Source of the DNA: a virus
IMG/VR virus record: IMGVR_UViG_3300037104_000963
Location: 1-26,451 of that record
Direction: 5' to 3' (one strand)
DNA length: 26,451 bases
Shown one piece after another: positions 6,202 through 24,678 of the stretch; position 1 is the first letter of the stretch, and each line of letters begins with the position of its first letter. The notes under the pieces were generated by a model that ran no database searches, was not told the origin of the DNA, and was given only the letters and a program-made list of their open reading frames with translations. A program made the position numbers and the translations under genes.

Positions 6202-6743
6202 CCGACTTGCCCCCATCCAAGGTTGAGGCTCTTGCATCGTTCGCGCGTGATCACGATTGTTCCTTTCGGTATGATGGCTTCGCGGACGTCCCGTTGCTGG
6301 TCCTTGAGCGGCTCGCCGTCCGGAGGGCGCACGGCGAGCACCGCGGCGTATTCGCCTTGCTGGTGCTTCAGGCGTCCCCACATGGCTTTTTCGTCGGATT
6401 CGGTCCAGACCCTGGCGGGGATCTGGTGTAGGCTCGTGCCGTCTGGCATGAATACCCTCTCCTTGGCGCTACAGACCCCGCACAAGGCGTCGCGCCCCCA
6501 GAACGAGGTATCCAGCCTCCAGACGCTCTTCTCGTCCAGGATGCCCTTCTGGGCGCCCTGGATGTCGCTCATCTTGGTTATGGTGGTCAGGAACTCGAAG
6601 ATCCACCAGTTATGGCAGATCGGGCACCGGATGTTGAAAATCACGATCGCTGGCTTGGCGCCCTGGCTTGGTTGAGGTGTTGGTGTGCCGATTCGGAATG
6701 GCCGCTTTGGTTCGAAAACCTCGACTTCGTCGATTGCGATCAT
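6198..6743 (-). CDS. Cys-cluster protein, probable zinc binding
   Basis: The start is the ATG at 6743, which overlaps the stop of the loader gene (ATGA) and follows an AGAGG. A TTG at 6767 in the same frame is less likely. The 181-residue product has two CxxC pairs, CPIC and CGVC, about 50 residues apart, which could form one zinc site. Around them lie hydrophobic strands (AIVIFNIR, then WWIFEFLTTI). The C-terminal part reads AAVLAVRPPDG and IIPKGTIVITRERC. It lies between the helicase loader and the SNF2 helicase and overlaps both, so a DNA-metabolism role is plausible. No family is recognised. Confidence 0.7.
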   Translation of the reverse strand: MIAIDEVEVFEPKRPFRIGTPTPQPSQGAKPAIVIFNIRCPICHNWWIFEFLTTITKMSDIQGAQKGILDEKSVWRLDTSFWGRDALCGVCSAKERVFMPDGTSLHQIPARVWTESDEKAMWGRLKHQQGEYAAVLAVRPPDGEPLKDQQRDVREAIIPKGTIVITRERCKSLNLGWGQVG

Positions 6744-7489
6744 CTGTTCGACCTCTTGGTTGGCCAATTCATCATGAATGATCCTGACCCTTTATCCTCT
6801 TTGAGGCGATCGATGATTCTTGCCCCTACTGCTGTTTCGAGCGCCTGGCCCATCAGGTTCGAAATAAGTATTGTTGGCTTGAGCATGTCGTGTCTTCCGC
6901 AAAACACTGCATTCAGCATTGTGCGTTCATGATCTGTCCCAAGCCCTGAACCAATTTCGTCAATCACAAGGAGCTCGGTATTCACGAGATCTTGGATTAC
7001 CTGGCGCTCGCTTTTCCCATTTCCGTCTCCGTATGTCTCACGGACTGCCTGGGCCACGCCTGTTGCGGTTTGGTACTTTGCCTTGCCTGGGCTCTTGATC
7101 TCCCACGCGTGGATCGCTGCGATGGCTAGGTGCGTCTTTCCTGTTCCCGGGGACCCATACAAGAGGATCGACGCTGTGGTGTTTCGTGCAACAAGATCTT
7201 CGATTGCCGTCTTGGGGATTCGCTGGTCTTCGGTCTTCACGATGAATGAATCGAAATCCATCCCAATGAATCTTGGCTGTAATCCTGTGGCCGCGATTCT
7301 TGCCCATGCATCCTGTCGAGTCTTCTCTTTTATTTCTTTTTCCGCCTGCTTCCAATCTGGGCGCAATTCTATTTCTGCGAGGAGATTGGTGTATTTGCTC
7401 GTCGATGGCTCATCGCCATTCTTTATGGCGCGTTCGAGATTGCACCCAGTTTTATCCCAGTCGATTGCTGTTTGATTTGTGAGTTCCAT
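6740..7489 (-). CDS. DnaC/IstB-like replicative helicase loader
   Basis: The product is 249 residues. Its AAA+ core has Walker A GSPGTGKT at 112-119, Walker B LLVIDEIG at 173-180, a sensor-1-like TILISNL near 206-212 and an Arg-containing RIIDRL near 224-229. This is the pattern of the DnaC/IstB-like group. The N-terminal ~100 residues would hold the helicase-binding region. Its neighbour upstream is a DUF1376 replication protein, and the pair is the standard initiator-plus-loader arrangement of many phages. The start overlaps the upstream stop by one base. The gene is visibly more AT-rich than its neighbours (many AAT, ATT, TTT and CTT codons), suggesting separate acquisition. Confidence 0.88.
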   Translation of the reverse strand: MELTNQTAIDWDKTGCNLERAIKNGDEPSTSKYTNLLAEIELRPDWKQAEKEIKEKTRQDAWARIAATGLQPRFIGMDFDSFIVKTEDQRIPKTAIEDLVARNTTASILLYGSPGTGKTHLAIAAIHAWEIKSPGKAKYQTATGVAQAVRETYGDGNGKSERQVIQDLVNTELLVIDEIGSGLGTDHERTMLNAVFCGRHDMLKPTILISNLMGQALETAVGARIIDRLKEDKGSGSFMMNWPTKRSNR

Positions 7490-8349
7490 TATCGGTTTAC
7501 ATCCGAGCTTAACGGTTTACTGTTTTCGTAATCGGAATGCGTGAAAAGGAATCGCTGATCTCCTGGCAAGCCTTTCCCTTTCCGCTTCCAGGTCTCAGGA
7601 TCATCCGTCCAGCGCCCCTTGTTCATCCAGGTGGCGCACATCGGGGTGAACTGGTCTCGGTCTTCTTTGGGCCACTCCGCGACAGCTGTGGCGTAGAGTT
7701 GAACCTTTTCCAGGAGCACGGCTGGCTCGATGGTCTTGAGGGCCTTCTCGATCGCCTTGAGTGCGTCGATCTTGGCGGCCTTCATGGGGTAGGCTTGGTA
7801 GATCGTCTCGATCGCTGGGTCGGCAATTTTTGCCGGCTTCGGACAAGCGACCGAAGGGAGCGTTATTTGTTGTTGTTCTTGTGGCTGTGGTTGTGGTTGT
7901 GGTTGTGGTTGTGGTTGCATATGCTTTGCAGGTGCATTGGATGTGCTATGCATATGCAATGCATCATCGCCTTTCTTGCTCCAGCGAGTATTTGCGGCCC
8001 CTGCTCTCTTCTCGTAGGCTTGGCACGCTTTTTCACGTTCTTGGTCGATGCGCTTGTTGTGGTAGCCATCAGCATCGAGGATGAAGAATTCACCAAGCAC
8101 TGCATCAGCTATGCATATGCTTCGCTCATCCATTGCATGTGCAATGCTCATGCATTGCATGCGGTCCGGGGGGAGTGATCCCTTGGTCCAACAGCGCATC
8201 AGGAAGAGCAGGTACACTCCGTGTCCGGTTGCGTCCAGGTGCGAGGTGTCTGCCAAATAGTCGCCGACGTAGAGTGGCATCCATCCTCGTGAGCTCAACT
8301 TGTGCCCTTTCGAAAAGTCGGCCCTCCTGGAGCCCGGGTCGACTTGCAT
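7489..8349 (-). CDS. DUF1376-type phage replication protein
   Basis: From the ATG at 8349 the product is 286 residues. Residues 23-60 carry the DUF1376 signature: WMPLYVGDYLADTSHL, then GHGVYLLFLMRCW. A basic segment follows (near 100-125), then a Pro-Gln repeat linker at about 145-157, and a C-terminal domain starting IYQAYPMKAAK, of the kind seen in phage replication initiators. The start is uncertain: a TTG at 8298, six bases after AAAGGG, would give a start close to the domain, and a TTG at 8460 is also in frame. The protein should act at the origin and hand over to the DnaC-like loader encoded next. TGCAT clusters and a hexanucleotide repeat lie inside the gene. Confidence 0.82.
   Translation of the reverse strand: MQVDPGSRRADFSKGHKLSSRGWMPLYVGDYLADTSHLDATGHGVYLLFLMRCWTKGSLPPDRMQCMSIAHAMDERSICIADAVLGEFFILDADGYHNKRIDQEREKACQAYEKRAGAANTRWSKKGDDALHMHSTSNAPAKHMQPQPQPQPQPQPQEQQQITLPSVACPKPAKIADPAIETIYQAYPMKAAKIDALKAIEKALKTIEPAVLLEKVQLYATAVAEWPKEDRDQFTPMCATWMNKGRWTDDPETWKRKGKGLPGDQRFLFTHSDYENSKPLSSDVNR
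7881..7916 (-). repeat. Hexanucleotide tandem repeat encoding a Pro-Gln linker
   Basis: Five exact copies of GTGGTT (7887-7916) follow one imperfect copy, GTGGCT (7881-7886). On the coding strand they encode alternating Pro and Gln. The unit is two codons long, so a change in copy number would alter the linker length without breaking the frame. Confidence 0.9.
7916..8162. other. Candidate replication origin: clustered TGCAT motifs
   Basis: Two clusters of TGCAT/ATGCA words lie inside the DUF1376 gene. The first has TGCATATGC (7916-7924), TGCAT (7933-7937) and ATGCATATGCAATGCAT (7948-7964). The second has TGCAT (8101-8105), ATGCATATGC (8111-8120), TTGCATGTGCAA (8133-8144) and ATGCATTGCATGC (8150-8162). 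The word GCATATGC recurs in both. Several units are palindromic. Some phages, lambda with gene O being the best known, keep their origin as repeats inside the initiator gene. The motif clustering is seen directly; the origin role is inferred. Confidence 0.45.
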
Positions 8350-8525
8350 CCCCGCATCCAGTGGCGAGGGCAGGGCGTCCAGGAGGGCTTTTCGTTCGTT
8401 GCGGTAGGAATCGACGCCTACTGCGTGGAGAGAATCTACTTCCTGGTCCTGGATTTGCAAAGCAGAACGGCGACCAGGGCCACTAACCGTTCCACTCCGT
8501 GGTTCGATCGTTCCCGGCCGCCGAG

Positions 8526-14739: not shown

Positions 14740-15210
14740 TCAGAATGGCAAATCGTCGTCGGCTCCGGCCTGGACTCCGTTGGGAGTTCCGCGGGGGATT
14801 TCGCTGCCGCCGAAGTCGGGGTCGCTGCCTCCGCGCTGTCCTTCGCCCTGATGCTCGCCGTTGTTGCGGTTGGCGCCGTCGAGGAACATGACCGTGTCGC
14901 CGAGGACTTCGGTCGCGTAGCGCTTGGCGCCCGTAGCCTTGTCGTCCCAGCTGCGGGTCTGCAGTTTGCCTTCCACGTAGACCTTGGAGCCCTTGCGGAG
15001 GTACTTCTGGACCGTCTCGGCCAGCCCGCGCCAGACGACGATGGTCACCCATTCCGTCCGCTCCTGCTGCTGGCCGCTGTCCTTGTCCTTCCACCGTTCG
15101 GTGCAGGCGACGCGGAAGTTCGCGACCGTTGCCCCTCCCGGCGTGGACCTGACCTCGGGGTTGGCCCCGAGGTTTCCGATGAGCATCACTTTGTTGAGGG
15201 AGTTGGCCAT
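14740..15210 (-). CDS. ssb: Single-stranded DNA-binding protein (SSB)
   Basis: The ATG at 15210 has a strong ribosome site (AAGGAGGCC). The 156-residue product is a clear bacterial-type SSB. The OB fold occupies residues 1-110: [18 protein letters not shown], then [49 protein letters not shown] Gly/Asn-rich linker follows, ending in the acidic tip DDDLPF that recruits partner proteins. It coats single strands made by replication and by the YqaJ exonuclease. The gap 14638-14739 after it holds a 7-bp hairpin (CAGGATG/CATCCTG) and no gene. Confidence 0.95.
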
Positions 15211-15262
15211 TATAGGCCTCCTTGTTCTTGTTGTTGTACCCCTTGTTCAATCGGCCAGGGGC

Positions 15263-15287
15263 GGCGCCTTCAAAATCAAAAGGCGCC
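15263..15287 (-). other. Hairpin in the ssb leader
   Basis: GGCGCCTT (15263-15270) and AAGGCGCC (15280-15287) pair around a 9-base A/T-rich loop. It lies in the gap 15211-15310 upstream of ssb on the leftward transcript, with no gene there. It may be an attenuator, an RNA-stability element or a weak terminator of the preceding gene. Confidence 0.45.
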
Positions 15288-15310
15288 CGCCTCGGGCCCC
15301 TTCTCTGTCG

Positions 15311-15637
15311 TCATTCGTCTCTGCCGTGGAAGCGCTGGTTTTTCACCTGTTGCGCGAATTCGTGTTGGTGCGCGACGCTTGCGTGGTAGCCTTTCATAGT
15401 GATCTCCATGTCGGCCAGGCCGTCGTTCTTGGTGGCGCGCTCGATGCCGCGGTAGTTCTCGGCCACCATGCCGCGGATCAGGTTGCTGTCGTTGTGGAGG
15501 AGCAGGAAGACCATGCTCTCCAGGATGGAGATGAGCTGGTCTTCCTTGGTGCGCTTTTTCCTTGGCCACTGGAGCCAGGTGATCAGCGTGAGCATGATGG
15601 CCCCGAAGGCGATCGACGTGATGTTCCATGCGGTCAC
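15311..15637 (-). CDS. Small membrane protein with soluble C-terminal part
   Basis: The GTG at 15637 overlaps the upstream stop (GTGA) and has AGGAG seven bases before it. The 108-residue product has a hydrophobic span at about residues 5-23 (SIAFGAIMLTLITWLQW), then PRKKR, then a helical soluble part (EDQLISILESMVFLLLH and NYRGIERATKND). A second, weaker hydrophobic stretch lies near residue 45. It is the second gene of the leftward operon. The function is unknown; an early host-membrane effector is possible but unproven. Confidence 0.65.
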   Translation of the reverse strand: MTAWNITSIAFGAIMLTLITWLQWPRKKRTKEDQLISILESMVFLLLHNDSNLIRGMVAENYRGIERATKNDGLADMEITMKGYHASVAHQHEFAQQVKNQRFHGRDE

Positions 15638-15810
15638 TTGGTTGCTCCTGTGAGTTTTTGCAGCCACTTGGAGGCCGCGATGCTTTCGCTGACACCGGCG
15701 TCGAGTTCTTCCTGGAAGGACGTCTCGACGAACCGGGCCCAGGCGTCGTTCTTGGTGCTGGTTTTCTCGATCTGGGCTTCCAATTGCTGGGTGATGGCGT
15801 TTCCGGACAT
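15634..15810 (-). CDS. First gene of the leftward operon, small helical protein
   Basis: The ATG at 15810 has AAAGGA upstream. The 58-residue product is helical and polar: NAITQQLEAQIEKTSTKND, then ARFVETSFQEELDAG and SIAASKWLQKL. It is the first leftward gene after the divergent intergenic region, so it should be the first one transcribed. No family is recognised. Confidence 0.65.
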   Translation of the reverse strand: MSGNAITQQLEAQIEKTSTKNDAWARFVETSFQEELDAGVSESIAASKWLQKLTGATK

Positions 15811-15830
15811 GGCGATTCCTTTGGCTTGCC

Positions 15831-15871
15831 CGACATTGGGCGGCTCACCGTGTGGATGCCGCCCAGTGTCG
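15831..15871. promoter_or_regulatory. 14-bp inverted repeat between divergent operons
   Basis: CGACATTGGGCGGC (15831-15844) is the reverse complement of GCCGCCCAGTGTCG (15858-15871) at 13 of 14 positions, with a 13-base spacer. It occupies the 82-base region 15811-15892 between the leftward replication operon and the rightward virion operon. A regulator-binding site controlling both directions is the natural reading; a hairpin terminator is the alternative. No sigma-70-like promoter could be assigned with confidence. Confidence 0.6.
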
Positions 15872-15892
15872 TTTGGAGGTACATTGAATCGC

Positions 15893-16369
15893 ATGGCCTA
15901 CGCAACCTCTTCCGACCTGACCAATGCGTACTCGGCGTCCCTCCTGGGGCGCCTGTGCGTCCGGGCGGATGATCCGGTGCCGCTGGACCCGGCCGTCCAG
16001 GATGCCCGGGTCGCCGCCGCTCTCGACGGCGGCTCGGGTGTGATGGATGGCTACTTCCAGGCGGGCTACAACGTGCCGGTGCAGACGTCGGTGCCCTCAG
16101 GGCTGACTTCCCTCCGGGATTGCTGCTGCGTCCTGGCTGTTGCCACCCTGGTGGGCCAGAAGGGGTACGTTCGCGGCTCCGAGGACGAATCCCTGATGGT
16201 CCGTGCGGAGACCTGGCGCGCCTGGTTGCGGGACGTATCCAAGGGGATCGTCCAGATCCCGGGCGCTTCGGCTTCCGATGCCAATTCGACTGGTTCGGCG
16301 CCGCGCACGGCATTCCTCGTCTCCAGCAAGTGCCGCTACATCCGGAACGTCGACCGCCGGTTTCGCTGA
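15893..16369 (+). CDS. DUF1320-like head-tail connector protein (Mu gp36-like)
   Basis: The ATG at 15893 follows GGAGGT at 15875-15880 with long spacing; a TTG at 15884, in frame, is closer to it. The 158-residue product has the DUF1320 layout: MAYATSSDLTNAY at the start, then DPAVQDARVAAALDGG, MDGYFQAGYNVPV, SLRDCCCVLAVATLVG, and later MVRAETWRAWLRDVSKG. Members of this family, such as the Mu gp36 type, join the head to the tail. Its place at the start of the neck and tail genes fits. The end (STGSAPRTAFLVSSK) is typical for the family. Confidence 0.72.
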   Translation: MAYATSSDLTNAYSASLLGRLCVRADDPVPLDPAVQDARVAAALDGGSGVMDGYFQAGYNVPVQTSVPSGLTSLRDCCCVLAVATLVGQKGYVRGSEDESLMVRAETWRAWLRDVSKGIVQIPGASASDANSTGSAPRTAFLVSSKCRYIRNVDRRFR

Positions 16370-19300
16370 TGCCTGTCGACCAGGTCGACGATCAGGCGGA
16401 TGACGAGGAGGAGCACTGGTCCTTGCGTGGGGAGAAGGCCGCCCTCATGGCGGGCTATACGTTGCGCATGGCCCAGGAATGGCACCCTGGCAACATGCCG
16501 GGTCCCACCTCGGTCAATCAGACGCTGGACCAGGGCCAGGTTGATTCGCTGCGTGGGATCACCCGCACCTCGATCCTGAATCTCCAGGAGGAGTTCCACC
16601 GGGTGCCGCCGGCCGTGCAGTTCTCGCCGGAGACGGACAGTACGGACGCATTCTTCACGATCGAGGGCCAGCGCGTCCAGCGTGGGGACACGCTCTCCTT
16701 GAGCTTCGAGGAGGCCTTGCGGGCTGCCTCGGAGCTGGAGCAGCACTTCGGCAAGGACCGTGTGGCTGGCGTCCCTGGCCCTGCCCTGCCTGCCTTGAAG
16801 AACGATCAGATGTTCCGGCCCGGTGTGCTGGCTGGCGATCTCCTGTTCCACCCCCAAGCTCTTGGTGAGGAGGAATTCTTCTCCCCCCAGGAGCTGAAGA
16901 ACCAGGACCAGTTCAAGGCTGGCCAGCTGAAGAACGAGATCGAGTTCGGCGCCTTCGACGAGAAGGAGGATGAACTCAAGATCCCCGGTCTGCCGAAGCG
17001 GAACGCAACCCTGGTGGACTCGCTCTCGATGATCTCGCTCCTCGCCCAGCCGCAGCCTCTCCGGATGCAGGATGTGGACAGCGTCTTCGCGCGTGTCGGC
17101 CGGAAGGATGGCTTCGCCGCGGCCGCGTTCGGGAACGCGCCGGCTTCTCTTCTCCTGCCGGCGACGGCCGACGAGGTGAAGCGGATCTTGAACCACGAGA
17201 TTGGGGTGGATCTGACCTTCCAGGGCTACGACTTCGCGCGGCCGGCGGACATATTCCAGAGCGAGGGCAAGCGTCCGGCACTGGACCCCGCCCGTGAGAA
17301 GCTGGTCCGCCAGACGGTGGCCTGGGCCACAGCCATCGCGACGACCCATGGGCTGGACGAAGATGGCCGTCTCGATCTCCATGCTCCAGGTGGCTTCGAC
17401 TGGATCAGCAAGTCCTACCGGACCCCGTTGACCGGTGTCGCGGAGCAGGCCGGCCGCGTGCGGGCGGCCGTGGGCGATGTGGTCTCGCCGTACATGCTTG
17501 ACTTCAAGGATCCCCTCCTGGAGATCTTGTTTCCTGGGGCGACGCCCGCGCAGAAGGGCGAGCATCCGTTCCAGGAGTGGGGTCGGGATGCGACGAACTT
17601 CCTGCTGGGCTGGATGCTTCCGGGCTCGAATGTGCGGGATGTCACCGGGAACCACTGGCTCCCGGTGGATGGGATCAGGACCTCCACCTACCGGTCGATC
17701 GACAATTTCCGTAAGGAGATTGGCGCGCCGCAGATGGTGAACTTTCTGATGGATGATGGGATGATCCGGGCGGCCTCGATTGATCCTCACCCCATCAATA
17801 TGGGGTACACGCGTGGCATGTTCGGGATGAACCCTTTCGGGAAGGAGCTCGATCGGTGGCCGTCGATCCGTGGCCAGCAGGCCGCGGGGGTGATCTCGAA
17901 TCCTGTTCTCGGGCCGAAATCCACCTTGACCAGTATGCAGTTCTGGGGTGGCACCCTGATGGATCCCTATACCGGGCAGTTGGAGACCATCGAGCCGCTG
18001 TTCGTGTATCGGGGCATGAAGACCAACGAGAAGACCGGCAAGGTCACCCTGAATGCGCCCCATGTCTCGCTCCAGCAGCTTGACCATGTTGTCCCGTTGT
18101 CCTACGCCTGGCAGCATGGCGCCGAGCAGATGTTCGAGGAGGCCTATCGGTTGTTCGAGGAGGCCGGCCCGCTTCCTTCGAAGAAGGGTGATTTCAGGCG
18201 CCTGATGCTTCAGAATGAGCTGGTGATCGGTTCTGGCGGCCTTGCGACCATCGACTTCGCCTCGCTCTCTCCGAACTCTCAGAAGGCCCTCCGGATGATG
18301 GAGGCGATCTCGCGGATCGGGTACGCCGCGAATCCGAGCCAGTACGCGCTGGTCGCTGCTGCCCTGAACCAGGCGAAAGGTGATAAGGGGCCGAGCCAGT
18401 GGACTCCCTTCGCGTGGGCGCGCAACCAGTTCGAGCACAACCTGAACAAGGCCTACGTCGACCGGTGGCGCGCAGTGATTCCCGATGGCCGTCGTGCGAT
18501 GGAGGGTGTCCTTGGCAGGGCGCTCCCCGACTACCTGGCGGTGAGCCGGCCGGATGAGCTGGCCATGCGGCGCATTGAGCTGGGACTTGACCGGGCGAAC
18601 CGGTTCGAGCGGCCGTTCACCGAGGCCTACGTCCGCTACATCGATTCTCCGGACCTGACCGAGAGTTCGCTCTACCGGTCGATCCGTGGGACGATGGTGG
18701 TGGGGGAGTACCAGTTCGCTACGAAGCTGGCGCTCTGGTCCCTGATCCCCTGGAGTCAGGCGTACCTGGTTGGCCGCGACTACCTCGCGCGTGGCGTCTG
18801 GGCGCACCTGTTCCCTCGGCACGATGACCCCTGGAAGTCCACTCAGCTGTGGACTGCGGAGGGCCGTGCCACGGCGTGGGCCCGCTCGAAGAGCTTGGGC
18901 AACTGGTTCCGAGGCCGGATGGCGGGCGTTCCGCTGAATGGGATGTCGGAGCCGGCGCTCACCGGCGACGCGGCGATCTTCACCCTCCATGACCTGGTGC
19001 GCTCGGGCCGCACCGAGGAGCTGGTGCACAGCGCGACGGGCGAGGTGCTCTCGCGCATGATTGGGAAGACCTACCTGGCGCATCCTGACCAGGTCCTGCG
19101 GTATGTCCGCGGGGACCGGGCCGCCTTCGGGGAGGACCGGGCCCGCGGCCTGAAGCCCTACGAGACTGGCCGGATCCAGGGCATGGCCGACGAGGTCCGC
19201 TCGCGGTACCTCGCTTACCTGGAGACGGGTGACGAGTCTTTCCTGCCGAAGGGTGGCCAGGATTTCCAGGGGCTGACGGCTCCTCAGCGGGCGCACTGGA

Positions 19301-22116
19301 CGGGCGAGCTCTCGATGCTTGAGCGAGCCCAGGATCGTCTCCTGGCTGTGGGCCCGCAGCGGCCTTCGGATCTGGCCTCTCTGGAGTCCAGGTACGTCAA
19401 CCGGGATCTCCTGCGCGCAGTCCGTCGTGGTGTGGTGGAGGAGTACCAGGTTCTGAGCGAGTCCCAGGTGGGCCGCGAGTTGCTCGAGGCGATTCCCTTC
19501 TACCAGGAATTCGTGGAGGCGGTGAGGCATGGGAAGGCGTCCGAGGCCGTTTGGCTGTTGAGCCGGCAATTGGCCATCAAGGGTGCCGACTACTCGGCGC
19601 GTGCGGCGCTGGGCACGGGCCGCGGGCTCGCGAACTTGTTGCCCCAGAACTTCCTTCCCATCCTGACGATGGAGGGCCTGGCGCTGGACCTGGGCAAGTT
19701 GACAGGCACGACTGTGGCGAAGCCGTTTCAGATTGGAGTGAAAGACTTTAAGACTGCTGGATTCAAGGATGTTTTTGATTGGATTAAATCTGTGCGAAAT
19801 AATCAATCAAAAGAGGCTCGTAGTCTTATTGCTTCGATTCGTGATATGCGTGCTGGTCTTGAGTCGACTACGCAAGATGCTATTAAATTTGCCGAATTAT
19901 ATCGTCCGATCTTAAATCAGGCGGCAGTTTACCCGCGTGGATTCTCTCGAGTGACGTATGGATTACATAGTCGATCCTTCCAATTTTCTCTTGCTCCTGC
20001 TGTTGAGGATGCACAAGCGTATGACGCCTGGGCTGAAGGCAATCGACAGTGGCTTGCTGGTATCCATGAGAAAGCGCAACTTGAGTCTACTCTTGGTGAG
20101 CGCGCACTTTATGCTCGTGTGAAAGCGTCTCTTATTAAGAGTGGCGTGACTCCTGTTGATGCGGCGAATCGTGCGCGGTACGCTTTTCGACAAGATCATA
20201 TCTCAGAGGATCTTCAGCATTTGCTTATGGAGAATGGAGAGTACTATTTCGATCCTTCTTTGCGTCGTCTTGTGCCCCGGTATGTAGCGTCAGATCCTTT
20301 GCGATTTGGTGGTGCGTTTGGTGAAGCGTCTTACGCTCCTACTCGCGAATGGGCTTTGGTCCGCCGGTATCATAGTACCACAGAATTCCATGGCGTTAGG
20401 CTCATTGCTGGTGAGATCCCGCGCACTGGTGCCTGGGAGGTTGATCGTCGTACTGGCAAATGGGTAAAAGCTACTCCTGAGCGCGGGTTTAATGAAACAT
20501 TTTATGTTGCAAACTTTGATGAAGTTCATGTTCCAACAGAAGGTGCATCGCTTCCTCCTGGTGGAATCTGGCGGCCTCATGCAGGGACATTTGGCCGTAG
20601 CGAAGATCTGAGGGCCAGTATTTATGCGCAAATTAGAAACGATCCTACTGCTACTCCTGGATTATATGAAGGCCCAATTCAATATGGTGGTCGCGAAAAG
20701 ATTCGGACTTTTAATTCATTAACTCCAGAGGTTCAGGACCTTCAAAAGCGATTAGACCCTGCTCAGATTCCATCTTATGAACTTCGCGAACGTATTTTTC
20801 AACCGCTTCCTGATGATGTTCTTGATTCTTATTTTAAGAAGATGAATGAGCCTCGTGCCATCGGTGATTATTTTGAGGCGCAGATTCGTGAAGCTGAAGT
20901 TCGGCTTCGTCGAGTTTGTCAGCTTCGGAATCAATGGGCAGAATTGATGTCTGATTCTCCTTTACGATTCCATGACGTCCAAACTGGAAGTGCTGTTTCG
21001 CGATGGGCTTTTCAGCACCCCTTGGCTACTTCTCGAATTTTCAGTGCTGCTGCCTTGCCTGGCAAGGCGATGGAGGTCGTGCGGGCGCCTTTCGTTTTCC
21101 ATGACGCCGTGGCTGCCCGTGTGGCGGCCGGAAGGTTCCTGCGGCCTGTGGGCGCCATCCTGGGGGGTGGTCTGCAGGCCTTGGGTTTCGTGGAGTCCTG
21201 GGCGAGGTTCCGGCACGCATCCTCGCTGGCTGGCCGGCCCTACGACTCGCTGACCATGGACCAGCGGGCGGAGCTTGAGGCCTACACGGAGCCGACGACC
21301 AAGGACCTGGTGATCCACACCTTCCTGGACATGGGCGCCCCTATCACGCCCAAGAGCCTGTTCTCGAAGTGGGGCGCGGCCGGGGCGGCCATGGCTGGAG
21401 GGAACCTGATCGGCCAGACGCTGGCCCTTGGCCGTGCGATGCAGGACACCGGTTTCGCGAACAGGCGCCTCCAGCGCCTGGTCGGCGATTCGGCGACGGT
21501 CCAGGAGCAGGCGCGGTACGCGTCGCAGATCCAGGCTCGGCGCGCTGTGGGGCTTCTCCAGTCGGAGACCAGCTTGCGGTCGATGTTCAACGTTGTGGAC
21601 ACCGGCTCCTACTTTAGCGCCATGCGGGACTCGATCGCCTCGAATGGCGACGTGGTCGCGAAGCAGAAGATGGCGAAGAAGATCGAGGCCCAGCGCCAGG
21701 CCTGGCGGATGATCCCGGTCCGGGATTCCCTGGGCTACGAGACCACGAAGACCCGGTTTGGGAAGACGATCGAGCATCCCTTCCAGCAGGCGCCGGAATT
21801 CGTCTCCGATGTCTCATTGGTGGTCACCGGCCGGGCTGGGGCCGCCAAGTTCGACACCCTGAATGCCGTCCCGGCTGCCGCGCGCCTGGTCGTTCGCGAT
21901 CGGGACGACCGTCTCCGCCGTGCCGCAGAGAAGATCCGCCACGACGAGTCCATCGCGCGCATCGAGCGTGTAGCCAAGGAGGGCTCGCTCTGGAAGTCGA
22001 TGCTCCTGGAGGTCCAGATGGCCAAGGAGGACTTGCGGCGCCCGAAGGGGCGCGCCCAGGATTCTGCGGATGTCGCCCGGGACCTGCAGGTCCGCCGGCA
22101 ACTTCGGGCGCGATGA
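16369..22116 (+). CDS. Giant virion-locus protein with HNH (DUF1524/GmrSD-like) nuclease motifs
   Basis: The ATG at 16369 overlaps the previous stop (TGATG); an ATG at 16447 after GGAGAAGG is an alternative. The product is about 1915 residues. Around residues 525-700 it matches the DUF1524 HNH nuclease pattern: GTLMDPYTG (D532), LDHVVPLSYAWQHGA with D572 and H573, LMLQNELVIG with N616, then LNQAKGDKGPSQWTP with N667, K670 and W678. In GmrSD-type nucleases the DHVxPL His and the later Asn are catalytic. The rest has no recognised domain: an acidic N-terminus, long helical stretches, and two Ala/Gly-rich hydrophobic segments near 1595-1680. Codon use changes sharply between about residues 1120 and 1563. 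Being among head-tail genes, it may be carried in the virion and ejected with DNA. The role is inferred. Confidence 0.75.
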   Translation: MPVDQVDDQADDEEEHWSLRGEKAALMAGYTLRMAQEWHPGNMPGPTSVNQTLDQGQVDSLRGITRTSILNLQEEFHRVPPAVQFSPETDSTDAFFTIEGQRVQRGDTLSLSFEEALRAASELEQHFGKDRVAGVPGPALPALKNDQMFRPGVLAGDLLFHPQALGEEEFFSPQELKNQDQFKAGQLKNEIEFGAFDEKEDELKIPGLPKRNATLVDSLSMISLLAQPQPLRMQDVDSVFARVGRKDGFAAAAFGNAPASLLLPATADEVKRILNHEIGVDLTFQGYDFARPADIFQSEGKRPALDPAREKLVRQTVAWATAIATTHGLDEDGRLDLHAPGGFDWISKSYRTPLTGVAEQAGRVRAAVGDVVSPYMLDFKDPLLEILFPGATPAQKGEHPFQEWGRDATNFLLGWMLPGSNVRDVTGNHWLPVDGIRTSTYRSIDNFRKEIGAPQMVNFLMDDGMIRAASIDPHPINMGYTRGMFGMNPFGKELDRWPSIRGQQAAGVISNPVLGPKSTLTSMQFWGGTLMDPYTGQLETIEPLFVYRGMKTNEKTGKVTLNAPHVSLQQLDHVVPLSYAWQHGAEQMFEEAYRLFEEAGPLPSKKGDFRRLMLQNELVIGSGGLATIDFASLSPNSQKALRMMEAISRIGYAANPSQYALVAAALNQAKGDKGPSQWTPFAWARNQFEHNLNKAYVDRWRAVIPDGRRAMEGVLGRALPDYLAVSRPDELAMRRIELGLDRANRFERPFTEAYVRYIDSPDLTESSLYRSIRGTMVVGEYQFATKLALWSLIPWSQAYLVGRDYLARGVWAHLFPRHDDPWKSTQLWTAEGRATAWARSKSLGNWFRGRMAGVPLNGMSEPALTGDAAIFTLHDLVRSGRTEELVHSATGEVLSRMIGKTYLAHPDQVLRYVRGDRAAFGEDRARGLKPYETGRIQGMADEVRSRYLAYLETGDESFLPKGGQDFQGLTAPQRAHWTGELSMLERAQDRLLAVGPQRPSDLASLESRYVNRDLLRAVRRGVVEEYQVLSESQVGRELLEAIPFYQEFVEAVRHGKASEAVWLLSRQLAIKGADYSARAALGTGRGLANLLPQNFLPILTMEGLALDLGKLTGTTVAKPFQIGVKDFKTAGFKDVFDWIKSVRNNQSKEARSLIASIRDMRAGLESTTQDAIKFAELYRPILNQAAVYPRGFSRVTYGLHSRSFQFSLAPAVEDAQAYDAWAEGNRQWLAGIHEKAQLESTLGERALYARVKASLIKSGVTPVDAANRARYAFRQDHISEDLQHLLMENGEYYFDPSLRRLVPRYVASDPLRFGGAFGEASYAPTREWALVRRYHSTTEFHGVRLIAGEIPRTGAWEVDRRTGKWVKATPERGFNETFYVANFDEVHVPTEGASLPPGGIWRPHAGTFGRSEDLRASIYAQIRNDPTATPGLYEGPIQYGGREKIRTFNSLTPEVQDLQKRLDPAQIPSYELRERIFQPLPDDVLDSYFKKMNEPRAIGDYFEAQIREAEVRLRRVCQLRNQWAELMSDSPLRFHDVQTGSAVSRWAFQHPLATSRIFSAAALPGKAMEVVRAPFVFHDAVAARVAAGRFLRPVGAILGGGLQALGFVESWARFRHASSLAGRPYDSLTMDQRAELEAYTEPTTKDLVIHTFLDMGAPITPKSLFSKWGAAGAAMAGGNLIGQTLALGRAMQDTGFANRRLQRLVGDSATVQEQARYASQIQARRAVGLLQSETSLRSMFNVVDTGSYFSAMRDSIASNGDVVAKQKMAKKIEAQRQAWRMIPVRDSLGYETTKTRFGKTIEHPFQQAPEFVSDVSLVVTGRAGAAKFDTLNAVPAAARLVVRDRDDRLRRAAEKIRHDESIARIERVAKEGSLWKSMLLEVQMAKEDLRRPKGRAQDSADVARDLQVRRQLRAR
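19727..21060 (+). other. Lower-GC in-frame segment inside the giant gene
   Basis: Base composition falls abruptly near 19727 and returns near 21060. By eye, GC is about 33-52% per line inside against roughly 65-70% outside. Codons ending in A or T dominate (GAT, CTT, TTT, AAT, GGT), while the reading frame stays open throughout. The segment encodes about 440 residues, for example WIKSVRNNQSKEARSLIAS and YDAWAEGNRQWLAGIHEK. A perfect palindrome, GCCTTGCC-T-GGCAAGGC at 21052-21068, lies at the right edge. It looks like a recombined or inserted module. No intein signals were found. Confidence 0.8.
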
Positions 22117-22130
22117 GGTAGATTCCAGGA

Positions 22131-22715
22131 ATGGCCCACAACGATCCGCATCCGATCTTCGTCAAACCCTGCAAGGACGCGATCAAGGCGGCCCTCGTTC
22201 TGGCTGGGATTGGAGAGCTGGACATCTCCTACAGCTCGATCGAGCGGAATGGGCCTACCGGCGCGCGCGTTCTGAACAGCCAGAAGATCCCGCCGGTCAT
22301 GAACATGGCCGGGGATCCCCCGAATGGTGGGGTTCGATCTTCCTGGCGCGGGGATGACGGCCAGCTGCGTGTCCGCTCGAAGCGGTTCGACCTGATCCTC
22401 CACTTCGACGTCACGATGTGGTCGGAGAAGCTGTCCGAGGCTACCCAGTTCTTCTTCGATTTTGCCCGTCATCTACCGAGATCTATCACCGATGCGATGC
22501 CTGCTTCTGGCTTGGCGGTCCAGCCGGCCGACGAACATGGGATGCCGATTCTCCTCACGATGCTCATGCCGATCCTGCCGGACGACACCACCAACACGGC
22601 CAAGCAGTACAAGGCGACATGTGTGGTCCGTGCTGATGGCGGCCTCTGGCTCGACAAGCAGGCGACCGTCGCGGTCACGCCGGTGATTACCGTTTCCAGC
22701 ACACTGCTTCCGTGA
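22131..22715 (+). CDS. Probable tail-completion or tail-terminator protein
   Basis: A 194-residue product starting 15 bases after the giant gene, with GAGGT about 11 bases upstream. The N-terminus reads HPIFVKPCKDAIKAALV. The middle (SKRFDLILHFDVTMWSEK, then ATQFFFDFARHLPR) resembles the strand-helix core of tail-terminator proteins that cap the tail tube. The last part is beta-rich (KATCVVRADGG, VAVTPVITVSSTLLP). The position directly before the sheath gene fits tail completion. The assignment is by position and general pattern, not by a firm family match. Confidence 0.5.
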   Translation: MAHNDPHPIFVKPCKDAIKAALVLAGIGELDISYSSIERNGPTGARVLNSQKIPPVMNMAGDPPNGGVRSSWRGDDGQLRVRSKRFDLILHFDVTMWSEKLSEATQFFFDFARHLPRSITDAMPASGLAVQPADEHGMPILLTMLMPILPDDTTNTAKQYKATCVVRADGGLWLDKQATVAVTPVITVSSTLLP

Positions 22716-22740
22716 TCTACCTTTCGCGCAGGGGGAATCC

Positions 22741-24207
22741 ATGACCACACCGCTTCTGCCGAACAGCTTCGTCAATTTCAAGGACGGGCAGCTTCCGAAG
22801 GGTCCGTCCGGATCGGGGATTTTCGTCTTCGTCGGCGTGGGCAACGGTGCAGCGACTCCTGGCGTGGTGACTGCAGTCAACTCTCCCAACGATGTCCAGC
22901 GCCTCTTCGGTGTCGGCCCGCTGGCGCAGGACCTGGTCACCTTCTTCCTTTCCGGCGGGAGTTTCTGCTACGCCATCCAGCTCGCCTCGACCACTCCAGG
23001 ATCCGCAGGAGCAGTCACCATCGGAGCCTTCACGGGCCTGACGGTTTCCAGTGCAGCCGGAACTTTGCTGGCGGATTGGGACATCCGGGGGCGCATCGTG
23101 GTCGGTGGCGCCCTGGGGATCGCCCAGGCCATCTACTCGTTCGATGGTGGGAGCACCTGGGGTTCCCCGCAGGTCCTCCAGACCGGCGCGAACAACGTGG
23201 TCGGCTACGGTAACTTCAACCCTGGGATCCAGATCACTCCGACTGCGTTGACCTATGCGGTCGATCCGAATCCGGTGGGCACCGCTTCCAGCCAGGAGTT
23301 CGCCGTCAAGATCACGCCACCGTCTGCGCTGACCTCGGCGTTCACGGCGGCGATGGATACGGCGATCCAGGATCCCTCGCTGTTCTTCAACACCTTCCAC
23401 CTCTCCGATCTTCCCTCGGACGTCCTGCTCACGGCCGCCGCCCTTGCCTCCTACGCCGCGACGCTGGCGGGGAAGCTGGATGATGCCGCGGTGACCTGGT
23501 TCAAGTTCATCTACCTGGTCATGCAGACGCCCGCGCAGACCACGGGCGCGCTGGCCGCCACCTTTATGCGTGCGGTGCGGGCTGCATTCGCCCACAACCG
23601 GATCCAGATCTGTTGCCAGTCGATGGTTGTCAAGTCTCTGGGTGGCCAGTACATCATGCCGGTCTCGGCGGTTGTGGCGGCCCGTCGGTCTCTCCTGGAT
23701 CCCCAGAACGACCTCGGGATCGTCTCGGCGGGCCAGCTTCTGGCGATCGTGTCCTTCCCGCCCACCGGATGGAGCACCTCCGACGTGATCGCGTTGGACC
23801 AGATCCAGAACAACGTGACGGTCCGCCAGATCTTTGGTGCAGCCGGGTTCTTCTTCACGAATGGCTGGATGTCGAATCCCTCGAGCGACTACTCGAAGGA
23901 TGCCTTCCGCCTGATCGCTGACCTGGTGGCGAACGACGTGCGCACCGCGGGCATCGCATTCATCAAGATGGACGTGGACCCTTCGGATCCTGCCGCTTCC
24001 GCCGGCCCTCTGCTCAATGTCTGCGCAGGCCCGTTGGACATCCGCGTCAAGCGGAAGCAGATGTCGAAGTACAGCCTCACGGTTCCATCCGGGCAGGATG
24101 TCCTGACGACCAGCACGCTGATCATCGAGGTCTCGATCAAACCCATGGCGTCCGCGTCGTGGATCCAGTTCAACGTGGGCTTTCAAAGCCCGTTCGCAGG
24201 GAAGTGA
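22741..24207 (+). CDS. Tail sheath protein (DUF2586-like)
   Basis: The ATG at 22741 has AGGGGGAATCC upstream. The 488-residue product looks like a contractile-tail sheath. The N-terminal part is Gly-rich and beta-like (GPSGSGIFVFVGVGNGAA, then SPNDVQRLFGVGPLAQDL, typical of sheath proteins that set a slippage register). The C-terminal third reads SKDAFRLIADLVANDVRTA, then PLDIRVKRKQMSKYSL, and ends in strands (STLIIEVSIKPMASA) that in sheaths knit neighbouring subunits together. Directly downstream is a tube-like gene, the normal order. A DUF2586-type sheath is the closest family I can name. It should form the contractile outer tail layer. Confidence 0.72.
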   Translation: MTTPLLPNSFVNFKDGQLPKGPSGSGIFVFVGVGNGAATPGVVTAVNSPNDVQRLFGVGPLAQDLVTFFLSGGSFCYAIQLASTTPGSAGAVTIGAFTGLTVSSAAGTLLADWDIRGRIVVGGALGIAQAIYSFDGGSTWGSPQVLQTGANNVVGYGNFNPGIQITPTALTYAVDPNPVGTASSQEFAVKITPPSALTSAFTAAMDTAIQDPSLFFNTFHLSDLPSDVLLTAAALASYAATLAGKLDDAAVTWFKFIYLVMQTPAQTTGALAATFMRAVRAAFAHNRIQICCQSMVVKSLGGQYIMPVSAVVAARRSLLDPQNDLGIVSAGQLLAIVSFPPTGWSTSDVIALDQIQNNVTVRQIFGAAGFFFTNGWMSNPSSDYSKDAFRLIADLVANDVRTAGIAFIKMDVDPSDPAASAGPLLNVCAGPLDIRVKRKQMSKYSLTVPSGQDVLTTSTLIIEVSIKPMASASWIQFNVGFQSPFAGK

Positions 24208-24210
24208 CCC

Positions 24211-24678
24211 ATGTCCATCCTTGGCCGCGCCTTCGATTGGGAATCCCTCTCGATCATGATGACCACACCTGTCCCGCTGTCCCTGTCCAACATCAAGTCG
24301 GTGGACTGGTCGGACACGCGTGGCATCACCCCGACCTACGGCGCCGGTGGTGCTCCGCACGGGTACGGCCGCCGGAACTATCGCGCCCAGGGCTCGATGG
24401 AAGTGGCGGACGAGACCTACGCCGCATTGCTCATGGCCGCCGCGGTCGTCGGTGGCATCTACAACCTGATCTTCAGCCTGAACCTCAAGTATGGGAGCAA
24501 TCCCTACTCGACCGGCTACGACAAGATCCATAACACGATCCTGAACCAGTGCATCATGGCGCGCCGTGGCGGTGCTTCCCGCCAGGGCGTCTCGGAGGCG
24601 CGTATCATCCGGCTCGAGTTCGAGATCCTGGGTGGCGTGACCGACTTGGCCCTCTCCGAGCTGGCGGCCGTCCTGTGA
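24211..24678 (+). CDS. Tail tube protein
   Basis: A 155-residue product with AGGGAAG six bases before the ATG, starting three bases after the sheath stop. It has the small beta-barrel pattern expected of a tube protein: SIMMTTPVPLSLSNIKSV, WSDTRGITPTYGAGG, RRNYRAQGSMEVADETY, and an ending strand RIIRLEFEILGGVTDLAL. Order (sheath, tube, chaperones) and size are those of P2-like and Mu-like contractile tails. The stop overlaps the next start (GTGA). Confidence 0.72.
   Translation: MSILGRAFDWESLSIMMTTPVPLSLSNIKSVDWSDTRGITPTYGAGGAPHGYGRRNYRAQGSMEVADETYAALLMAAAVVGGIYNLIFSLNLKYGSNPYSTGYDKIHNTILNQCIMARRGGASRQGVSEARIIRLEFEILGGVTDLALSELAAVL

Follow-up and report, generated by a model that had tools for sequence, protein, structure and literature searches.

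Almost certainly, judging by sequence comparison, a giant late protein of 1,915 aa (213.5 kDa, pI 8.2) encoded by a metagenomic virus holds a real but divergent DUF1524 HNH domain that is homologous to nucleases. The gene lies in IMGVR_UViG_3300037104_000963, a linear metagenomic virus fragment of 26,451 bases, and by the window we mean this whole stretch. The genome is that of a phage, and the gene belongs to its late operon. We put at roughly 45% the reading that the giant, expressed late by a contractile-tailed phage, is associated with the virion as an effector or ejection protein and is equipped with an HNH nuclease.

The HNH domain and its active site

The DUF1524 (PF07510-type) HNH domain covers residues ~476–722 (17794..18534, + strand), contains two insertions, and is defined by profile, hhalign, a residue table and an AlphaFold model. 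PF07510 alone scores 12.2 bits at residues 563–591, under the curated Pfam cut-off of 23 bits, and routine annotation would therefore miss the domain. A profile of 97 relatives, with members from viral and genome contigs, gives 42.3 bits on the giant (at most 2.4 bits for 1,000 shuffles) and aligns as two colinear pieces, residues 522–591 and 634–682. When the whole giant was compared with plasmids by tblastn, 19 records matched, all at residues 469–608, and the matched site carries a DUF1524 or HNH annotation in 18 of these 19; hhalign against eight of the plasmid proteins gives an E of 1.9e-10 over residues 525–608. Within the 85-sequence family set, which is the 97 relatives minus near-duplicates only, 83 sequences match PF07510 (best 2e-27). 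The DUF1524 HNH identification of an earlier, sequence-only reading is borne out by the 42.3-bit profile, hhalign, the plasmid matches and the signature residues; the profile match expected of it falls short in Pfam itself and stands with the 97-relative profile and hhalign.

The same reading had assigned the motifs to GmrSD-type nucleases. The nearest kin of the domain are instead small secreted DUF1524/HNH proteins (PF07510) of Actinobacteria and Candidatus Saccharibacteria, with which the giant has in common GY.R..F, DPYTG, QIDHVV.L..AW..GA, N..KGD, W.P and the C-terminal helices. These relatives are frames of 220–674 aa, mostly small, with N-terminal export-type sequences and four conserved cysteines, whereas the domain of the giant is internal to 1,915 aa, is cysteine-free and has insertions at ~538–569 and 592–647. 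The GmrSD type IV restriction enzymes (GmrD being the DUF1524 part) belong to the same Pfam family and follow the same His-Me finger logic, and a long His–Asn spacing is found in GmrD and the giant alike (PMC4619093). However, the GmrD motifs, (E/D)HxxPQ, LGNLxLL and NxxFxxKK (PMC4619093), are not those of the giant, and neither the giant nor the other scanned proteins of the window have a GmrS (DUF262) domain. A GmrS or ParB-like partner was rejected on the negative domain scans of the giant. We note that gene 27 of Gordonia phage Finkle (L013:1192-2052), a secreted-type DUF1524 nuclease, is annotated only as a membrane protein.

The motifs themselves are all where the sequence-only reading placed them: DPYTG at residue 532, DHVVPLSYAW at 572, LNQAKGDKGPSQW at 666, and N616. 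DPYTG (residues 532–536; 17962..17976, + strand) is matched by D in 91, P in 95, Y in 93, T in 81 and G in 93 of the 97 relatives. D572 and H573 (18082..18087, + strand), each found in 96/97 relatives, are predicted to be the metal ligand and the general base, by analogy with D113 and H114 of GmrD (PMC4619093). The N..K of the motif is formed by N667 and K670 (18367..18378, + strand), with N in 95/97 and K in 96/97 relatives. The catalytic D-H and N..K of PF07510 are present, and each of the 16 signature positions checked is kept, including Y480, R482, D532, Y534, D572, H573, W581, G584, R649, N667, K670, W678, P680 and Y696. In the domain tree the giant sits on a branch of 3.7 substitutions per site, too long for it to be placed; that the catalytic residues are kept in a very divergent sequence suggests selection on catalysis.

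N616, in contrast, does not serve as the motif asparagine for which it had been taken. It lies inside an insertion of ~56 residues (592–647; 18142..18309, + strand) that is lacking in all 97 relatives and is defined by a gap at 645–647 in 97/97 relatives, by the spacing and by helices of the model. At the equivalent position, which holds the structural Asn in the HNH motif, the giant has Q658 (18340..18342, + strand); the relatives have N there in 79, E in 9 and V in 7 of 97, so this Asn is not universal in the family. The His-to-Asn spacing had rightly been called long: because of the insertion at 592–647, H573 and N667 are 94 residues apart, against 37–39 in the 97 relatives. In GmrD of E. 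coli CT596, 64 residues separate H114 from N178 (PMC4619093), and spacing length alone is therefore no argument against function. Among columns conserved in at least 90% of the family, 32 of 55 are kept in the giant, and the substitutions D655N and N658Q lie near the active site, with G664A as another. Given the 32/55 columns, D655N, N658Q and the large insertion, the nuclease could be altered or inactive.

An AlphaFold model from the 85 sequences has a pLDDT of 70 and a pTM of 0.64, with block means of up to 88. Its elements comprise a strand at 569–573 (D-H), a helix at 577–599, a strand at 659–663 and a helix at 664–670 (N667 and K670), which agree in their order with the strand-strand-helix of the HNH finger; the 592–647 insertion forms extra helices. 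Among viral proteins, Foldseek matches the model best to one with a GmrSD C-terminal domain (prob 0.85, E 0.32), a support that is partly circular because the model was built from an alignment of the DUF1524 family. No solved-structure match was found for this deeper model. A first model from 15 sequences was poor (pLDDT 51), its fold search was meaningless, and both were set aside; a PDB sequence match for the giant was also sought and rejected.

The four conserved cysteines of the family are all lost in the domain of the giant, as would suit a protein of the cell interior or of the virion. An exported enzyme, probably stabilised by disulfides, would thus have become a cysteine-free internal domain. 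The 1,915 residues of the giant include a single cysteine, C1517. A short repeat is present within the protein as NQFEHNLNKAYV (residues 686–697, 18424–18459) and NRFERPFTEAYV (residues 744–755, 18598–18633).

The late operon and the gp36–sheath slot

As described from sequence, one open frame of 1,915 codons (16369..22116, + strand) runs between a head-tail connector and tail genes, and its flanks are Gp36 and a DUF2586 sheath. The Gp36-type head-tail adaptor (158 aa; 15893..16369, + strand; PF07030 2e-12, PHROG phrog_195 6e-17) is the first late-operon gene in the 26,451-nt window, and the ATG of the giant overlaps its stop as TGATG. Downstream, 14 nt separate the giant from the pre-sheath gene (22131..22715, + strand), which a profile of the relatives' pre-sheath genes identifies (E 1.5e-5) as the counterpart of the gene directly upstream of their sheath; a further 25 nt lead to the DUF2586 tail sheath (22741..24207, + strand; PF10758 1.8e-25, phrog_907). 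The overlapping start and these short gaps place the giant gene in the late operon. The gene after the sheath (24211..24678, + strand), with phmmer matches directly after the sheath in ~17 related loci, is a probable tail tube.

The early module lies on the opposite strand, leftwards from ~15.2 kb, and encodes an SSB (a call read from sequence), YqaJ exonuclease, AAA ATPase, RusA, DnaC/IstB-like and DUF1376 proteins, an SNF2 helicase and a LexA-type regulator. In annotated relatives gp36 is preceded by terminase, portal and capsid genes, which are lacking at 15210–15893, where this divergent early module lies instead; the missing head genes imply either a rearranged head module or a chimeric contig. 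No terminase gene was found anywhere in the 26,451-nt window.

Across 25 related loci that have Gp36 as well as the sheath, 793–1,323 nt separate the two in 24 and 2,710 nt in one, compared with 6,372 nt here. The locus with the 2,710-nt gap (L056) has a 465-aa gene at L056:7220-8617 in this slot, which may therefore be a site for additional genes. Like the Mx4-, Riverbug- and MMP17-type DUF2586-sheath phages, the window has the order Gp36, pre-sheath, sheath and next gene, but the slot of those phages holds small genes only, including gp37, with no giant gene and no match to the giant. The relatives' gp37 tail-completion gene (Phage_tail_S) has no counterpart in the window, whose slot for it would be at 16369–22740, and left no trace in the giant, where a profile built from their gp37 cluster gave no match; a hidden gp37 was rejected on this result. 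With the pre-sheath counterpart present and gp37 missing, the giant therefore occupies the usual place of gp37. A tape measure was rejected as well, since that of the relatives comes after sheath and tube.

This position bears on what the protein does. The least unlikely of the alternatives holds that the HNH domain is altered or dead and serves DNA binding or architecture, with the giant taking over from gp37 as a structural protein of the neck or an ejection protein. The gp37-type gene of the relatives is indeed missing here with the giant in its place, and N658Q, D655N, G664A and the 56-residue insertion point the same way. However, D572, H573, N667 and K670 have been kept despite the 3.7-substitution branch, and the giant has no detectable gp37-like segment.

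It is also doubtful, if slightly more so, that the giant is an active nuclease which is not ejected and stays in the producing cell, where it would degrade host DNA, exclude late rivals or aid DNA processing at the time of packaging. The late-operon position and the catalytic residues are equally compatible with such a role. HNH proteins that adjoin head genes and assist packaging exist, HK97 gp74 being a precedent. Yet packaging HNH proteins are small and adjoin terminase, which the window is without, and the domain family is tied to secreted nucleases and restriction, not to packaging.

A foreign-codon block inside the gene

Residues 1120–1561 (442 codons; 19726..21051, + strand) form a foreign-codon segment, delimited by GC3, 4-fold sites and change points. 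GC3 is 0.32 within the segment and 0.84 elsewhere in the giant, and the 4-fold sites give 0.28 in the block against 0.83 outside, whereas GC1 (0.62 vs 0.67) and GC2 (0.46 vs 0.46) are nearly unchanged. Two change points bring a log-likelihood gain of 213. The reading frame is kept across both borders, and the parts of the giant that flank the block share their GC3 with gp36 and the sheath. Because synonymous codons have shifted while GC at the first two positions has hardly changed, the block likely reflects a module taken in recently, and in frame, from a low-GC source or relative, and, like the mosaicism in other conflict proteins, it would fit a protein under diversifying selection. An intein was rejected, since Cys or Ser and Asn borders are missing and the block does not include the HNH part. 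Elsewhere in the window, at 6740–8460, the DnaC-like and DUF1376 genes have GC3 values of 0.54 and 0.62, below most other genes, which is a second sign of mosaicism.

It is very improbable that the giant is an artefact of a chimeric contig or of fused frames and not a single natural gene. The record is a metagenomic virus fragment, it lacks the head genes expected before gp36, and codon usage shifts abruptly within the gene, but the frame is open through both codon borders with GC1 and GC2 nearly unchanged, both flanks match gp36 and the sheath in GC3, and start and stop fit tightly between the neighbours.

The giant as a candidate ejected protein

The giant resembles two known groups of large or toxin-like phage proteins. 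Like polyvalent proteins, it is very large and encoded among virion or late genes, and DNase domains are a polyvalent theme (PMC5512222); unlike them, it has none of the named domains (LPD, DarA/B, MPTase, PBECR and ParB-like), which were looked for in Pfam, NCBIfam and PHROGs. According to their survey, polyvalent proteins include ParB-like nucleases, which no other DNase domains accompany or displace (PMC5512222). With the MuF polymorphic toxins of temperate phages (PMC5576092), the giant shares a toxin-like enzyme domain encoded together with structural genes, but it gave no match to a MuF domain, its nuclease is internal and not C-terminal, and its gene follows gp36 and is not beside the portal. 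Unlike the case of the MuF toxins, no immunity gene was recognised with the giant.

Outside the HNH domain, scans of the whole giant and of pieces against Pfam, NCBIfam and PHROGs gave nothing, and no packaging signal was found. For the remaining ~85% of the giant no relative was found in searches whose query lacked a known positive, so that absence is not proven. IMG/VR gave no match with the whole giant or with pieces 1–530, 741–1200, 1111–1560 and 1561–1915; 50,697 phage records gave nothing beyond the HNH part, save three chance-level matches (E 6–9), and plasmids gave no match outside the HNH domain. Nor did a relative of the giant appear in 60 viral loci sharing the sheath (30 of them as whole records) or in 396 genomes of one phylum. 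By exact patterns, no relatives of the sheath were found in genome contigs.

The late-operon position, the size and the polyvalent precedent (PMC5512222) suggest that the giant is carried in the particle and ejected. Packaging, ejection, nuclease activity and target are all inferences, and an injected-effector function is plausible. In the favoured reading, that of a virion-associated effector or ejection protein, the giant would be expressed from one operon with the neck and tail proteins, be loaded into the particle and enter the host along with the phage DNA. Its HNH domain, most likely an old offshoot of a small secreted-type nuclease, would have lost all disulfide cysteines as an adaptation to a reducing environment, and would cleave DNA of the host, of plasmids or of rival phages in a metal-dependent way. 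Proteins that phages inject to modify or disarm their hosts are already known.

A more specific proposal, in which gp37 was swapped for an ejected 1,915-residue DUF1524 protein that behaves like a cassette and swaps modules, with the frame kept, with phages that differ strongly in base composition, is unlikely; if true, such virion-borne DNA-cutting effectors would form a class that has not yet been described. The sharp in-frame foreign-codon block would make this gene a clear example of module exchange within one giant phage protein, and a motif-complete, divergent HNH nuclease in a giant late protein would widen the set of DNases among polyvalent proteins.
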